Part shown: positions 15,277 to 20,331 of the stretch, one piece after another
Numbering within the stretch: position 1 is the stretch's first letter
Layout: every line of letters begins with the position of its first letter
Virus record (IMG/VR): IMGVR_UViG_3300009481_004094
Span: 1 to 31,902 of that record
Strand: one strand, 5' to 3'
Source of the DNA: a virus
Length of the DNA: 31,902 nt
Translations under genes and position numbers: made by a program
The notes under the pieces: model-generated
Told to the model about the DNA's origin: nothing
Seen by the model: only the letters and a program-made list of their open reading frames with translations
Databases searched by the model: none

Positions 15277-15666
15277 TTAAGTATTTATTTCATGTTTATT
15301 CTTATAATCTGCTATTGCTCCTTTAATCGCATCTTCTGCAAGAACAGAACAATGAATTTTTACTGGAGGCAATGATAATTCTTCTACGATTTCGGTGTTT
15401 TCTACCGCCCATGCTTCATCTAAAGTTCTTCCCTTTACCCATTCAGTTGCAAGTGAAGAACTTGCTATTGCACTTCCACAACCAAATGTTTTAAACTTAG
15501 CATCTTCAATTGTTCCATTATCACCCACTTTTATCTGTAATTTCATTACATCGCCACACTCTGGAGCGCCTACAAGAGCAGTTCCAATAGTTGGATCATT
15601 TTTATCAAAACTTCCGATGTTTTTTGGATTTTGAAAATGATCTATAACTTTTTCTGAATATGCCAT
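15277..15666 (-). CDS. iscU: Fe-S cluster scaffold IscU
   Basis: 129 residues, full length and strongly conserved: 'MAYSEKVIDHFQNPKNIGSF', the three cluster cysteines C37 ('ECGDVM'), C63 ('TFGCGSAIASSS') and C106 ('IHCSVLAED'), the assisting D39 and H105, and the HscA-binding 'LPPVK' (99-103). IscU builds [2Fe-2S] clusters from sulfur supplied by IscS. All catalytic residues are present, so it is probably functional. It follows the A-type carrier gene by one base. No iscS, hscA, hscB or fdx gene is in the window, so it would rely on host partners. Confidence 0.96.
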   Translation of the reverse strand: MAYSEKVIDHFQNPKNIGSFDKNDPTIGTALVGAPECGDVMKLQIKVGDNGTIEDAKFKTFGCGSAIASSSLATEWVKGRTLDEAWAVENTEIVEELSLPPVKIHCSVLAEDAIKGAIADYKNKHEINT

Positions 15667-15667
15667 A

Positions 15668-16063
15668 TTAATTCCATCCTAATTTTTGTTTACCGTCTGC
15701 AGGGATATCTTTTACTGGTGTAAAACTCTCTCCACATCCACAGACATGCTCAAATTTGAGCCGTTTAAATATAAATCCTTGTTCTACTAAATTTCCTACT
15801 TTATAATCTACTTCTACATCACCAATTATATCATTAAGAATGTATTCGTCTACTACTAATTTAACACCATGCTGTTCGAAAATTAAATCTGTAGACTCTA
15901 CTGTATCTTCATAATCTAAACTATACTTCCAACCAGAACATCCGCCTGAATTTGCTCCTATTCTTAAATATGCATCCGCCCAATGTTTATCTTCACCAAT
16001 ACACATTTGTTTAAATTCTACTGCGGCCTTTTCTGTTATTTTTAATTCACAAGTAGTCTGCAT
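15668..16063 (-). CDS. A-type Fe-S carrier (IscA/ErpA/HesB family), copy 2
   Basis: 131 residues. The family's three metal-binding cysteines are present: C42 in 'NSGGCSGWKYSL', and C108 and C110 in 'HVCGCGESF'. A-type carriers accept clusters from IscU and pass them to target enzymes. The C-terminus is extended past the usual CGCG(E/S)SF end ('TPVKDIPADGKQKLGWN'). Its ATG overlaps the end of copy 1 by 17 bases and iscU follows by one base, forming a three-gene Fe-S operon. It is clearly diverged from copy 1, so they are not a recent duplication. Confidence 0.92.
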   Translation of the reverse strand: MQTTCELKITEKAAVEFKQMCIGEDKHWADAYLRIGANSGGCSGWKYSLDYEDTVESTDLIFEQHGVKLVVDEYILNDIIGDVEVDYKVGNLVEQGFIFKRLKFEHVCGCGESFTPVKDIPADGKQKLGWN

Positions 16064-16439
16064 TGTTCATTCCCATCCAATTAGGTGTTGTTTCAGTTTT
16101 AGTCTCCGTATGTTCGTACATAAAAGAAGTCCTACAGCCACAAGAACCTTTAGCTGAAGGATTGTTAAATTTTAATCCTCTATCATTTAAATCATCTGAC
16201 CAATCAATTTCCGTGCCTTTAATATATAGATGACTCTTTTTGTCACATAAAATTCCTAAACCATATGATTCAAACTCTAAATCAAACTTTCCTTTTCTAG
16301 TATCAAAGTCTACTGTATAAGTAAATCCTGAACATCCTCCGCCCTTAACTCCAACCCGTAATACTGTCTCACCAGATACTTTTTGGTCTTTCATAATGCT
16401 TAATATTTTACTAGCGGCTTTTTCTGTTAAGCTGATCAT
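16047..16439 (-). CDS. A-type Fe-S carrier (IscA/ErpA/HesB family), copy 1
   Basis: 130 residues from the ATG at 16439, chosen because CAGGAG lies 4 bases before it. An earlier in-frame codon at 16505 would overlap the upstream gene and lacks such a site. Signatures: 'MISLTEKAASKI' opening, C36 in 'KGGGCSGFTYTVDF', and C100 and C102 in 'KGSCGCRTSFMY'. An extra C-terminal tail of about 20 residues (Thr/Glu-rich, 'WMGMNNADYL') is unusual for the family. A strong hairpin at 16453-16475 sits just upstream of its ribosome site. Confidence 0.92.
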   Translation of the reverse strand: MISLTEKAASKILSIMKDQKVSGETVLRVGVKGGGCSGFTYTVDFDTRKGKFDLEFESYGLGILCDKKSHLYIKGTEIDWSDDLNDRGLKFNNPSAKGSCGCRTSFMYEHTETKTETTPNWMGMNNADYL

Positions 16440-16452
16440 TTTCTCCTGAAGA

Positions 16453-16475
16453 ACCCCATCCATTACAGATGGGGT
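16453..16475 (-). promoter_or_regulatory. Strong hairpin before the Fe-S operon
   Basis: ACCCCATC/GATGGGGT form a perfect 8-bp stem with a 7-base loop, right after the 75-residue gene's stop and 8 bases before the CAGGAG of the first A-type carrier. No T-run follows on the minus strand. It may insulate or control translation of the Fe-S genes. Confidence 0.5.
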
Positions 16476-16482
16476 GCGCCAA

Positions 16483-16710
16483 TTATTTTTTTTCAACAAA
16501 TTCATAAAGTTCAGTAGCTTTATTCTTTATGTCTTCAATAGTATAATTTTTGGGTTGGAGGTCTTTAAACAACTCCATATTTGCTGTACCTTCTTCTTTT
16601 GCAAATTCCCATGCATCAATAGCGAATTGTGTTTGTTTTTGCTGTTGATCATAAAGATAACCAGAAGCCATCTCTAAAAGTCTAAATCTTAATTCATATG
16701 GATTAGACAT
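16483..16710 (-). CDS. Small conserved phage-type protein
   Basis: A 75-residue soluble helical protein beginning 'MSNPYELRFRLLEMASGYL'. It has the look of a small protein common in marine T4-like phages, but I cannot name its function. AAGGAG precedes the ATG. It is the first protein gene after the tmRNA coding piece, whose 3' region ends about 28 bases upstream, so both may come from one transcript. Confidence 0.75.
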   Translation of the reverse strand: MSNPYELRFRLLEMASGYLYDQQQKQTQFAIDAWEFAKEEGTANMELFKDLQPKNYTIEDIKNKATELYEFVEKK

Positions 16711-16737
16711 ATTTTCTCCTTATGTGTGTGTTGTGTG

Positions 16738-16913
16738 TGTCTGATTGTTTCTGTTCCAAGGCACAATCATAAGCCCGCCAGCGATTAAGCGGCTAATGCC
16801 ACTTGTGCTGAATAATAATCGTTATTATTTGCGATTAATTTAAATGACATTTTACATCTGTCAAGATGATCTCCTCTGTATAATCACATCCAATCGAATT
16901 CTATTACAGCCCC
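16738..16913 (-). ncRNA. ssrA: tmRNA coding piece (permuted two-piece tmRNA)
   Basis: The 5' end GGGGCTG (16913-16907) pairs exactly with CAGCTCC of the acceptor piece (17031-17025), including the G3-U70 wobble that marks alanine tRNA-like domains. Next comes GAATTCGATTGG (16901-16890), matching the D-loop region of tmRNA (E. coli GGATTCGACGGG). Helix-2 arms TACAG (16880-16876) and ATCATC (16870-16865) pair with CTGTA and GATGAT of the acceptor piece. The tag frame is at 16832-16785. Past it, TGATTGT/ACAATCA (16769-16763, 16748-16742) close a 3' hairpin that probably marks the end. tmRNA rescues stalled ribosomes and tags the nascent protein for proteolysis. The exact 3' end is estimated. Confidence 0.9.
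16785..16832 (-). other. tmRNA proteolysis-tag reading frame
   Basis: From the resume codon GCA (16832-16830) the frame reads ANNNDYYSAQVALAA and stops at TAA (16787-16785). It begins with Ala and ends with the hydrophobic ALAA degron expected of ssrA tags recognised by ClpXP. The upstream TTAATC before GCA is where the resume-codon determinants lie in known tmRNAs. The last Ala pair is GCC-GCT, in line with the window-wide avoidance of GCWGC. Confidence 0.92.
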
Positions 16914-16922
16914 TCCAAAGAA

Positions 16923-17009
16923 TCACCCACCAAAATAAAAATAAGTTCCCGTCATAATTATGCCAATTACAATTAATACTACTAATATGGCCATATCTGC
17001 ACTACTCAT
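16923..17009 (-). CDS. 28-residue membrane peptide inside the tmRNA spacer
   Basis: An ATG at 17009 with AAGGA six bases upstream opens a 28-codon frame ending in TGA. It reads M-S-S-A-D-M, then a membrane segment 'AILVVLIVIGIIMTGTYFYF', then G-G. The whole ORF lies between the CCA end of the acceptor piece (17021) and the GGGG start of the coding piece (16913), the segment that RNA processing removes in two-piece tmRNAs. The Shine-Dalgarno directly abuts the CCA. Single-pass peptides of this size are common in phages, but I do not recognise this one. It is supported by the ribosome site and composition only. Confidence 0.65.
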   Translation of the reverse strand: MSSADMAILVVLIVIGIIMTGTYFYFGG

Positions 17010-17020
17010 TGATGTTCCTT

Positions 17021-17083
17021 TGGTGGAGCTGATCGGAATCGCACCGATGTCTTAAATGCTACTCTACAGTATCATCGATAAAA
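17021..17083 (-). ncRNA. ssrA: tmRNA acceptor piece (permuted two-piece tmRNA)
   Basis: Ends in the T-arm ATCGG-TGCGATT-CCGAT (17048-17032), acceptor strand CAGCTCC (17031-17025), discriminator A and an encoded CCA (17023-17021). Upstream GATGAT (17076-17071) and CTGTA (17069-17065) pair with the coding piece to form helix 2. The 5' half of the tRNA-like domain is not upstream but 108 bases downstream, so the gene is circularly permuted, with acceptor piece first and coding piece second. The T-loop has G at the usual position 55 (TGCGATT rather than TTCRANN), an oddity. The 5' boundary is estimated and may reach into the preceding gene. Confidence 0.88.
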
Positions 17084-17449
17084 CTATTTAGATAAATCTT
17101 GAGTCACATCTTTAATTTTTTCTATTTGTTTAGTAATAATTTCTTCACGATTCGGCCAATAAATATAATCCTTATCTGGATTTTTCATAAGATTATATAA
17201 AAGAGGTAAAATTAATTGTTCAATTTTGCTCATATCTTCTACATATTTTTCTTCTAAATAATCTTTTTTATAACCGATTTCTTTAATAGCAGAATCTATT
17301 TTCTTTTCTAATGCCGAAAAATCTTTTGATTTTGCTTCTACTTGTTCAATCTTTTTTTCTACTTCTGTAGTTTTTGCTTTATATTCTTCATCATCTACTG
17401 CGGAAAAACCGAAGTCAAAACTAGCATATTCATCAGGTATTTGTGCCAT
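17084..17449 (-). CDS. Conserved hypothetical protein of T4-like phages
   Basis: 121 residues from the ATG at 17449 ('MAQIPDEYASFDFGFSAVDD'); a TTG at 17485 would overlap the RuvC-like gene much further. A central coiled-coil (about 25-75) is followed by 'LILPLLYNLMKNPDKDYIYW' and PNREEIITKQ, which resembles a short conserved protein found next to RuvC-like genes in marine T4-like phages. The function is unknown. Its stop is immediately followed by the tmRNA acceptor piece. Confidence 0.75.
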   Translation of the reverse strand: MAQIPDEYASFDFGFSAVDDEEYKAKTTEVEKKIEQVEAKSKDFSALEKKIDSAIKEIGYKKDYLEEKYVEDMSKIEQLILPLLYNLMKNPDKDYIYWPNREEIITKQIEKIKDVTQDLSK

Positions 17450-18014
17450 TTTCGTATCCGTATTTGCAAATCCAATAAGAGTCAACTATATCTGAAATGG
17501 GATTTTTATCACACTTTGTCTGAAATTCTTTTGTAAGTTCTCTCTGTGTGTCAGACACAAAAGAATCATACATTAATTCTTTATTTGCGTTTCCCTTATC
17601 GGATGCGTATTTTTTAATTACTGTAGGAGGTATCATTTCATACCTCAGTTTATAATTGAGTAAAGTATGTTTTAAAATTGCCATATTTTCCGCAATTTGT
17701 AAAACTCTTTGTCCGCTTGCGGCATAGGCATAATCTTCAATATAGACTATTTTGGGTCTTTTAGCATATTTTACAATACATTCTATTACCCAAGAAGATA
17801 GTCCTAAATATCTTTCCATCTCTGTGTTATATTTAGGATATTCCGTGATTTGAATATTATGTAAAGAACCCCATCTATCAAGTTGTCTACCGTTTTTCGC
17901 TAAACAATAATGTTTAATGTTTTCATATTTCCATTCACCATCACATTCTGTTACTGCTGGACTGGTTAGTGAATAATCAATTCCCACATGCAAATCATGT
18001 ATCCCAGTTATCAT
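17433..18014 (-). CDS. RuvC-like Holliday-junction nuclease
   Basis: 193 residues with an RNase H-like fold signature: 'HVGIDYSLTSPAV' (first catalytic D13), 'IVYIEDYAYAASG' (E93) and 'ISDIVDSYWICKYG' (D175/D178). This acidic set and the 'GIDYS' strand place it among phage RuvC-like resolvases, which process branched recombination and replication DNA before packaging, the job done by gp49 in T4. It overlaps its upstream (20 bases) and downstream (17 bases) neighbours in the replication operon. Confidence 0.85.
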   Translation of the reverse strand: MITGIHDLHVGIDYSLTSPAVTECDGEWKYENIKHYCLAKNGRQLDRWGSLHNIQITEYPKYNTEMERYLGLSSWVIECIVKYAKRPKIVYIEDYAYAASGQRVLQIAENMAILKHTLLNYKLRYEMIPPTVIKKYASDKGNANKELMYDSFVSDTQRELTKEFQTKCDKNPISDIVDSYWICKYGYENGTNT

Positions 18015-18147
18015 CGTCCTCTTCTTGTAGTTCTATCATCTCTCCACAATAAGAACAAAATTGTACTTTTTCTTCGTCTTCTTCATGAATAATAACTTCG
18101 TACATTTTTGAACAAAATGTACATTCAATTTTTTCAGATATCTCCAT
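17995..18147 (-). CDS. 50-residue zinc-ribbon protein
   Basis: An ATG at 18147 opens 50 codons with two C-x-x-C knuckles, 'CTFC' (9-12) and 'CSYC' (31-34), 18 residues apart, separated by an acidic linker 'HEEDEEK' and followed by a very acidic tail ('QEEDDDNWDT'). This is a classical zinc ribbon, able to bind one Zn and contact nucleic acid or protein. It overlaps glutaredoxin by 14 bases upstream and the RuvC-like gene by 20 bases downstream, so it is in frame with the operon's tight layout. A transcription or replication adaptor role is only inferred. Confidence 0.8.
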   Translation of the reverse strand: MEISEKIECTFCSKMYEVIIHEEDEEKVQFCSYCGEMIELQEEDDDNWDT

Positions 18148-18400
18148 TTTTGTCTAATGCTTCCTCTAATTCTCCTACAGTCAGATAAACCTTACCTTCC
18201 AAAAAAATCTGAGGAACCTTTTTACTTCCTGTAACTGACAATATTTTACCAAACAGTTTCTTATCTGCTTGAATGAACATGTATTGTTTTTTATGTTTAT
18301 CTAATAAAGACTTTGCTTTATCGCACATTGCACATTCTCTGAAAGTAAAATGTCCAACAACATAATTTCCTTTATTAAAATCTATTTCGTATTTTAACAT
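18134..18400 (-). CDS. Glutaredoxin
   Basis: 88 residues with a thioredoxin fold: active site 'RECAMCDKAK' (C23-x-x-C26), followed by the cis-proline motif 'VPQIFLEGK' (62-70) and a C-terminal helix. It probably reduces the ribonucleotide reductase encoded just upstream; their genes overlap by one base (stop/start TAATG-type). Phage NrdC-type glutaredoxins do this in T4. All catalytic residues are present. Confidence 0.9.
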   Translation of the reverse strand: MLKYEIDFNKGNYVVGHFTFRECAMCDKAKSLLDKHKKQYMFIQADKKLFGKILSVTGSKKVPQIFLEGKVYLTVGELEEALDKNGDI

Positions 18401-20331
18401 TATAAATCCACTACTTCACAGCCTTCATCTGCGGCACAAGCCAATTCCTGTGATCCTACAGTAAAATCTTTTTCTTCATATGAAGACAATAATGACCAAT
18501 CAACATTTTTAGGCATTGCTTTTAATGCTATTGTATATTCTTCTTCTGTACAATCTTGATACGGTGCTTGTCTGTATGTATGCTCCGAAAAAGGTAGAAA
18601 AGATATTCCACTAATATCATCAAAATTGCTCCAAACCCAATTTCCCATTTCTGGCCATTCTTGTTCTTTAACAGAAATAGTAACAGAAGGTTTATGTTCA
18701 CACCAATGTTTTTGATATGTAGACCAAATCTTTAACTGTTCAATTCCTGTTATATCTGTTCTACATATTGCATTTTTTGGACTCTTCGTAGGAAATGAAA
18801 ATACAGTTGTATGTTTAGGTCTCAGTACATCTGGTTCATTTGGAAATTCTGCATCTTTCATGAATTTACAAAGGGGGTCTTTATTATCCGCACGAACCGT
18901 TCTAATATAGTATGGATTATGACGAGCATGTATACCACTAGCAGAGTTGACAAGCTGGCTAACCGTACCAGAAGGCTTGACACAGGTGATAGAGGCTGAT
19001 TGTGATATTCCGAGTTTTTCTGAGAATTCTTTGTTTGTTTTAATTGCGACATTTTTTAAATTCTCCAATAAATCTTCTAAATTACCTTTTTTACCATTTG
19101 TCAAAGAATTATCCATTATTCCTGTGAGGGAGACCCCCAAAAGCCGCTCTTCTTCACAATTCTTTTTCCATTCCCGTGAGAGATATTTGAAACTGGTGAG
19201 GGTTGATTGAAATGTTCCAAGGATAGTTGCAGTTCGAACTTTTTCTTCCAAAGATTTGGAATCGTCCCCTCCTCTGACCACGACTTCTGAAAGATTGCAG
19301 AATTCTCTGCTTCTAAGAATAATCTCGCTACACGGATTGGTACCAAAATCTTCTTTTGGTTCTCTTCTGGTTTTTTCTTCACTATTCAACCTTTCTACTT
19401 GATGTTTAGCCGCTTGGCTGTTATAAATTCCTCGTTCTCCAGATTTAGAATCATAGAGAGATAACCATTCTCTCATAAAAGTACCAACATCTGGTTTTTC
19501 TTTATAATTTACAGAATTATTTGCAAGGGCTCTTTGTGGATTTGTTTCCCACCATTTTCCTGATTTTGCATGTCTCATTGATTCATCATTAAGATTAGAT
19601 AAACTAATAAGAGCGGATCTACGAACACCTCCTACAACAACTATTTCTGCAATCTTACATACAATATCATGAGCTTCAACTGATTTTAATTTTCTTCCAA
19701 AAGCACTCTGAAATGTATTTATAGTAAACATAAAAAGGTCTTCCAATGGCTCTGGACCCGATGCTCTTCCTCCAAATGTTTTGAGAGGAGATCCTGCAGG
19801 TCTTACATTAGATAAATCCCATTTTGGAATTTGTCCTTGCCATAACAATGACAGTAATTCTTTATATGCTTTAGCCCAACCAAGTTTAGAATCTGCAACT
19901 ATAATTGTCGTATCTGTTTCATAAAATTCTTCTGGTAATTCTGGAAGCTGATTAACATATTCTTCTTCAACTGAAAATCCTACACCTGTTCCATTCATCA
20001 AAACATAAAGAATTTCATCAAATGAACGTGGACAGTCTACTTTAACATAAGAACAATTATATCCTGCAATATTTTCTTTTTTAAGGGCTTCTCCTGCAGT
20101 CATTAAACATCTCATAGAAGGCATTACATCAAGATTTGTAATTCCTTTTCGTAAATCTGCCTCTAATCCATTATCAAGATCAAAATTATGTTTGTCTTTT
20201 AAGTGTTCTTTAAAAAAATTTAAATATCTATCAACCGTTTCTTCCCAAGTTTCCCGTCTTTTAAGATCATAATTCCATCTTGCATATCTTGATAAATGTA
20301 TAAAAGATTGATATTCGGTGGGTAGAGGCAT
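18400..20331 (-). CDS. Class II (adenosylcobalamin) ribonucleotide reductase, monomeric type
   Basis: 643 residues. It reduces ribonucleotides to deoxyribonucleotides using adenosylcobalamin for the thiyl radical, with no second subunit. It matches the monomeric Lactobacillus leichmannii type: radical site 'GTNPCSEI' (N332, C334, E336), redox cysteines C93 ('YNCSYV') and C345 ('EFCNL', 11 residues after C334 as in the model enzyme), 'FGGRASGPEPLE' (186-197), 'KPSGTVSQL' (452-460) and a C-terminal swinging pair C632/C638. It needs host-supplied or scavenged B12. It overlaps thyX and glutaredoxin by single bases. A complete enzyme, no truncation. Confidence 0.93.
   Translation of the reverse strand: MPLPTEYQSFIHLSRYARWNYDLKRRETWEETVDRYLNFFKEHLKDKHNFDLDNGLEADLRKGITNLDVMPSMRCLMTAGEALKKENIAGYNCSYVKVDCPRSFDEILYVLMNGTGVGFSVEEEYVNQLPELPEEFYETDTTIIVADSKLGWAKAYKELLSLLWQGQIPKWDLSNVRPAGSPLKTFGGRASGPEPLEDLFMFTINTFQSAFGRKLKSVEAHDIVCKIAEIVVVGGVRRSALISLSNLNDESMRHAKSGKWWETNPQRALANNSVNYKEKPDVGTFMREWLSLYDSKSGERGIYNSQAAKHQVERLNSEEKTRREPKEDFGTNPCSEIILRSREFCNLSEVVVRGGDDSKSLEEKVRTATILGTFQSTLTSFKYLSREWKKNCEEERLLGVSLTGIMDNSLTNGKKGNLEDLLENLKNVAIKTNKEFSEKLGISQSASITCVKPSGTVSQLVNSASGIHARHNPYYIRTVRADNKDPLCKFMKDAEFPNEPDVLRPKHTTVFSFPTKSPKNAICRTDITGIEQLKIWSTYQKHWCEHKPSVTISVKEQEWPEMGNWVWSNFDDISGISFLPFSEHTYRQAPYQDCTEEEYTIALKAMPKNVDWSLLSSYEEKDFTVGSQELACAADEGCEVVDL

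Follow-up and report, generated by a model that had tools for sequence, protein, structure and literature searches.

A putative membrane microprotein gene in the intervening spacer of a phage permuted tmRNA, probably carried as an exchangeable coding cassette

The spacer between the two halves of a permuted tmRNA, found here in a virus record of 31,902 bases (the window, that is, the whole stretch of DNA analyzed), very probably serves as an exchangeable coding cassette: it would encode a single-pass membrane microprotein of 28 residues, translated from the unprocessed precursor or from an operon transcript. The intervening sequence is absent from the mature molecule, and loss of the spacer is established for permuted tmRNAs generally, according to the available part of a recent database paper (PMC11915505). 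By all features tested, the RNA of the window is a typical permuted tmRNA; what is new is its putatively coding spacer.

Results

ARAGORN detected one permuted tmRNA in the window, at 16694-17113 on the minus strand (type tmRNA*, tag ANNNDYYSAQVALAA). Independently, the Rfam model of permuted tmRNA, RF04321, matched 17076-16785 of the same strand with 94.3 bits, compared to a gathering threshold of 47 (E = 2.8e-17). All features described below for this locus lie on the minus strand. The acceptor (tRNA-like 3') half occupies 17021..17076 (RF04321 and ARAGORN), its encoded CCA ends at 17021, and it lies upstream of the mRNA-like half. The latter runs from GGGG (16913-16910) to the end of the tag frame (16785..16913; RF04321 and ARAGORN), with the molecule continuing 3', and RNase P would be expected to cut just before 16913, where it starts. 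The tag reading frame, ANNNDYYSAQVALAA closed by a stop codon, was placed by ARAGORN at 16785..16832 (coding part 282-329 of the gene). Between CCA and GGGG, the Rfam alignment leaves a spacer of 107 nt (16914..17020), which is presumably excised at tmRNA maturation.

The tmRNA stands among genes of the same orientation. An upstream gene of 133 amino acids (17084..17485), for which Pfam gave a weak sub-threshold match only, has its stop codon 7 nt before the tmRNA; since it ends so close and on the same strand, the tmRNA precursor is probably transcribed within an operon. Downstream, a co-directional gene of 75 amino acids (16483..16710) has its own AAGGAG site. We also observed an iron-sulfur cluster assembly set adjoining the tmRNA (15277-16505, minus strand), with a NifU/IscU-like protein and two A-type (Fe-S_biosyn) proteins. 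Elsewhere in the window, at 18134-20331 (minus strand), glutaredoxin lies beside a ribonucleotide reductase that weakly matches the B12-dependent (class II) insertion domain.

The spacer begins with AAGGAACATCA, followed by an ATG. Directly after the CCA, 6 nt before this ATG, stands a Shine-Dalgarno-like AAGGA (17016..17020). The open reading frame (ORF) that starts here, 11 nt after the CCA, comprises 28 codons and a TGA (17009-16923, i.e., 16923..17009), ends 9 nt before GGGG and translates to MSSADMAILVVLIVIGIIMTGTYFYFGG, whose hydrophobic stretch reaches a best 18-residue Kyte-Doolittle mean of 2.5. A sequence-only reading of this DNA had described such a 28-codon ORF with AAGGA, hydrophobic segment and TGA between CCA and GGGG, and translation, ARAGORN, RF04321 and the Kyte-Doolittle profile reproduced this description exactly. 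In dinucleotide shuffles of the window's spacer, 8% gave an ORF of at least 20 codons with its ATG 4-24 nt after the CCA, and about 1% gave a hydrophobic ORF at that position. Given these rates, a single spacer is weak evidence, and we turned to relatives.

A first set of relatives was collected from loci with the neighboring RuvC-like gene. It comprised 24 tmRNAs, including that of the window, and every spacer carried an ORF of 27-30 codons in the same place, with unrelated-looking sequences. For a second set, viral contigs (IMG/VR) were searched with a pattern of the mRNA-like half, GGGGCTGNNATNGANTTCGATT, which is blind to spacer content. Together with the loci already in hand, this gave at least 72 distinct spacers among the matches listed. 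The ORF was called as the first ATG after the CCA; in families D and E, the longest ORF is a GTG frame that enters the tmRNA. Among the matches listed, all 61 spacers of at least 75 nt (each in fact at least 96 nt long) carried an ORF, in an enriched sample, since the pool includes loci found earlier via the microprotein itself; the pattern search on its own met no long spacer without an ORF among the matches listed. The ORF started 7-15 nt after the CCA in all 61, and its product was strongly hydrophobic in 52 of them (again among the matches listed). It usually ended 1-16 nt before GGGG in these relatives, and its stop codon varied between families (TGA, TAA or TAG) while keeping the same position. 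Most relatives had ribosome-binding sites of the AGGA/GGAG type, and the sites were weak in family F (AGAGATT) and in some members of family B (AAGAAAG). Such recurrence in 61 of 61 relatives indicates that the spacer ORF is not due to chance.

The other spacers among the matches listed were either empty (10 of 72, 13-33 nt), which indicates that the ORF is dispensable, or, in one case of 72, a deletion remnant of 42 nt shared by two loci (L430 and L521). This remnant derives from a family B cassette of which both ends and the closing stem were kept and the middle was deleted. As a control, we used the permuted tmRNAs of other phages, obtained with the pattern CTCCACCA, which returned mostly unrelated tRNAs and tmRNAs; only 2 of 25 control spacers of at least 75 nt had an ORF at this place. 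One of these two, the 95-nt spacer of L289, belongs to a divergent tmRNA and encodes the hydrophobic MDGQDILLSFVIFGIAGFIIWALGFVLF, and another divergent tmRNA, L347 (G017), likewise has a hydrophobic spacer ORF, MNDTSRLALWTLFIVAVVILLELLEMFTV.

Thus, the conservation across related phages on which the sequence-only reading had made its claim depend was found on alignment, frameshifts being absent save for the one remnant. Its interpretation, in which the discarded spacer could double as a short mRNA and tie tmRNA maturation to a membrane peptide, is supported in part. Its description of the product holds for most of the group, and the phenomenon is broader than it proposed: a membrane microprotein gene is predicted in most relatives, and others hold a basic protein of 50-60 amino acids or nothing. 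In this group of marine phages, the predicted peptide is mostly a membrane microprotein, usually of 26-30 amino acids. One family A tmRNA came from a contig in a Chloroflexi MAG (L344, PAAV01000031.1); its spacer is identical to that of the phage contig L002, and the contig is probably a mis-binned phage contig.

We then investigated whether the spacer ORFs evolve as protein-coding sequences. Family B (MEKKLMWLAI...YDFR) provided 41 distinct coding sequences of equal length, with no stop and no indel. The last codons were omitted, because coding and RNA constraints meet at the spacer ends. Over codons 2-25, pN/pS was 0.51 in frame, compared to 0.92 and 1.29 in the shifted frames, and parsimony changes by codon position were 54:24:73. 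In neutral simulations on the family B tree with no codon constraint, none of 200 runs gave a value as low as 0.51 and none of 200 was free of stops. In-frame pN/pS was 0.32 for family D, 0.40 for family G and 0.52 for family F (one pair), each time with higher values in the shifted frames. Substitution patterns thus show purifying selection at the protein level in several cassette families (B, D and G). A test of synonymous-site conservation had been proposed together with the original claim, and in the group of spacer ORFs only the true frame gave a pN/pS clearly below 1.

Family A, to which the window belongs, is represented by three distinct variants, and the ORF is intact in all (L001, L002, L003 and L344). 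With so few variants, the aggregate pN/pS of 0.86 does not separate selection from neutrality: one close pair differs by two synonymous and two nonsynonymous changes, and the third variant is too diverged. As these numbers are uninformative on selection, the coding claim for the window rests on the group, for which the data support a conserved, putatively protein-coding unit.

Comparison of closely related loci showed that the predicted cassettes are swapped, lost or reduced while the tmRNA stays. L001 and L009 have acceptor halves that are 100% identical, 5' pieces that are 95.7% identical and upstream DNA at 95%, with unrelated spacers. Similarly, L403, which carries an ORF, and L459, which has an empty spacer, have identical backbones. 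On the backbone tree we counted 23 changes of spacer type; this is an approximate count, because the tree is short (about 220 columns) and many of its branches are weak, and the pairwise cases stand without it. A reading of the spacer as an integration site was dropped; spacer ends keep a fixed stem register and are not repeats.

Folding of the ORF-bearing spacers from the main group paired their first dozen bases with the last ones in one register. In the window, the 5' strand of this predicted closing stem (17011..17022) includes the Shine-Dalgarno-like site, and the 3' strand (16916..16927) coincides in part with the ORF's last codon and stop codon; in the group, the end of the ORF overlaps or adjoins the 3' strand. 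This stem would lengthen the acceptor stem and leave a small internal loop where RNase P is expected to cut. Across 32 distinct stems, 95.7% of cells were paired in the same register. Moreover, we counted 57 double-change cells, compared to a mean of 22.4 in shuffled stems (0 of 500 reached the observed count) and to at most 10 when the strands were slid against each other. In the family B member L384, the leader and a synonymous third position have changed together. Covariation thus shows the predicted closing stem to be conserved. Empty spacers had a short stem or none. It was reported previously that pairing of a 5' leader with the 3' RCCA slows bacterial RNase P (PMC9433436). The pairing of the Shine-Dalgarno-like site within the predicted stem counts against the explanation that we favor, as do the weak sites of some relatives and the existence of empty spacers.

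Alignments of families B and D were also searched on their own against viral contigs, which yielded 58 and 8 loci, respectively. All 66 start 8-10 nt after a tmRNA CCA, and 65 end 0-9 nt before GGGG, the remaining one being cut by the contig end. In this search of viral contigs, no hydrophobic family was met outside a tmRNA spacer, and all 58 family B loci were inside one. The basic protein of 50-60 amino acids (family F) is found in some spacers and also as an ordinary gene in two large phage contigs (G026 and G029). At L510 (2834 region, minus strand), the mRNA-like half is present, the acceptor half is missing directly upstream, and the family F ORF follows another gene, with an AAAGGAG site. 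Two spacers, L431 (366 nt) and L465 (267 nt), contain a family F ORF followed by what seems to be another frame, this one hydrophobic (GVDFLALFIWNYGLYILLSYALLE...), which reaches into the mRNA-like half, where the TAA of GGGGCTGTAA closes it.

The spacer proteins had no match above cut-off in PHROGs, Pfam or NCBIfam; CcoS stayed sub-threshold (9.8 bits against a cut-off of 28.35). Isolate phages gave no useful match for the 75-amino-acid downstream gene, the family B microprotein or family F, and a DNA similarity search of the tmRNA against phage isolates gave only matches of 37 nt, which were of no use.

An unrelated group of phage permuted tmRNAs (L123, L212, L219 and L312) has a different hydrophobic spacer ORF, MFENWHWxYxWGI.... 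In these four sequences, pN/pS was 0.38 in frame, compared to 0.96 and 1.08 in the other frames. There is no stop before GGGG, so that RNase P processing would turn this ORF into a nonstop message. Four sequences are few, and we regard a second lineage with its own coding spacer as a lead.

Discussion

We propose that a ribosome could initiate on the precursor, at the spacer ATG, while the 3' strand of the closing stem is still to be made, and would produce the peptide. Where the stem closes instead, the acceptor stem would form and RNase P would cut before GGGG, committing the molecule to tmRNA and discarding the spacer. A ribosome on the start codon would sit over the CCA end, as one on the stop codon would over the RNase P site, and for this reason the two fates should compete; peptide and tmRNA would be alternative outputs for each molecule. 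The placement of ORF and stem makes such a competition between peptide synthesis and tmRNA maturation plausible. The predicted peptide, a single hydrophobic helix flanked by short polar ends, most likely sits in the host membrane. Our guess is that it could be a small accessory effector there, such as one that modulates the membrane or contributes to superinfection exclusion.

An ORF arising by chance in an AT-rich spacer, hydrophobic in appearance through its T-rich codons and yielding no protein, appears extremely improbable. Shuffles do give a single hydrophobic ORF here at the rate of about 1%, and family A alone is uninformative on selection. For the group, however, the alignments already contradict this reading through the 61/61 recurrence among the matches listed, the 66/66 placement, the frame-specific pN/pS, the codon-position bias and the lack of any frameshift in 41 variants. 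It is also very improbable that the conserved element is RNA structure only, such as a processing hairpin with the open frame as its by-product. The covarying stem does account for some of the constraint that the last five family B codons show, but it covers the ends only; codons 2-25, outside the 3' strand, keep their pN/pS of 0.51, and do so in frame only. Nor is the length of the spacer needed for structure, since empty spacers keep a short stem or none.

The ORF could instead work mainly in cis, with ribosomes opening the closing stem, in which the RNase P leader is paired to the tail of the acceptor half, and so tuning the amount of tmRNA that matures, the peptide itself mattering little. 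Consistent with this, the stem is formed by the encoded CCA end and the tail of the spacer, and start and stop are placed so that ribosomes would cover both processing sites. A purely cis role would nevertheless need no conserved amino acids, and several families are under protein-level selection; cassettes for a soluble basic protein, or no ORF at all, also work with the same tmRNA, and the two nucleotides adjoining the cut are mostly left unpaired by the stem. We thus regard this possibility as unlikely. A selfish or captured gene in a permissive site, whose microprotein is a phage accessory protein of the ordinary kind, functionally unconnected with the tmRNA, has a substantial chance of being the right answer, if a less than even one. 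The exchange and loss of cassettes, the remnant and the free-standing copies of family F all fit such a gene, while the restriction of the commonest family, B, to tmRNA spacers (58/58) and the stem register kept by all cassettes speak against it. This alternative overlaps with the exchangeable coding cassette that we favor and differs from it only in denying the coupling.

A bolder form of the cassette model, which we consider rather doubtful, is a precursor with two mutually exclusive products: if translated, it would yield the microprotein with the acceptor stem held open, and if untranslated, the stem would close and tmRNA would be made, in a swappable coding slot of independent origin in at least two phage lineages. 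If true, each molecule would trade microprotein output against ribosome-rescue capacity, and the ORF of the second lineage, processed to a nonstop message, would become the very substrate of tmRNA. L403 and L459, with and without an ORF on an identical backbone, offer a clean natural comparison for the competition between translation and maturation.

The spacers of processed RNAs count as waste, and annotation easily passes over ORFs that lie under RNA genes. In this group, the spacer is a conserved and exchangeable slot, apparently coding, with at least 61 distinct versions, which brings in a further class of phage microproteins, one probably overlooked in annotation. A single locus may thus be able to carry both a ribosome-rescue RNA and an mRNA.

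We found no described case of a coding tmRNA spacer in the literature, in agreement with the sequence-only reading, which knew of none; key older tmRNA papers lay outside the coverage, and priority is uncertain. In the 2025 database paper, which holds 11,946 permuted sequences, a term search of the available part did not come upon open reading frames, and the elements reported within intervening sequences were only one tRNA-Ala and one repeat (PMC11915505). Compared to the permuted tmRNAs of RF04321, the RNA of the window has the same order of halves, encoded CCA, GGGG start and tag frame, but here the spacer is putatively protein coding. The phages Mosig and Melnitz, marine phages of SAR11 and OM43, carry a two-piece tmRNA, and the likeness to our group lies in a marine, phage-borne permuted tmRNA; for Melnitz, the available part of the report describes no spacer ORF (PMC9004378). 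Mosig is the nearest isolate by the RuvC-like protein of the window (39% identity), and its spacer forms a short hairpin and lacks an ORF of the kind seen in the window's group. With type I toxins and holin-like peptides, the spacer microprotein shares size and hydrophobicity only.

Homing endonuclease ORFs nest in self-splicing introns of tRNA, rRNA or tmRNA genes and likewise place a protein gene within a removed stretch of a structural RNA. Here, in contrast, there is no intron or ribozyme, the predicted product is a membrane peptide of 26-30 amino acids or a small basic protein, and tRNA-processing enzymes would remove the spacer. The bacterial RNA SgrS/SgrT is a dual-function RNA, in which one transcript has an RNA function and encodes a small protein; in the phage tmRNAs described here, the presumed coding part is instead the removable spacer of a processed RNA and forms an exchangeable cassette.
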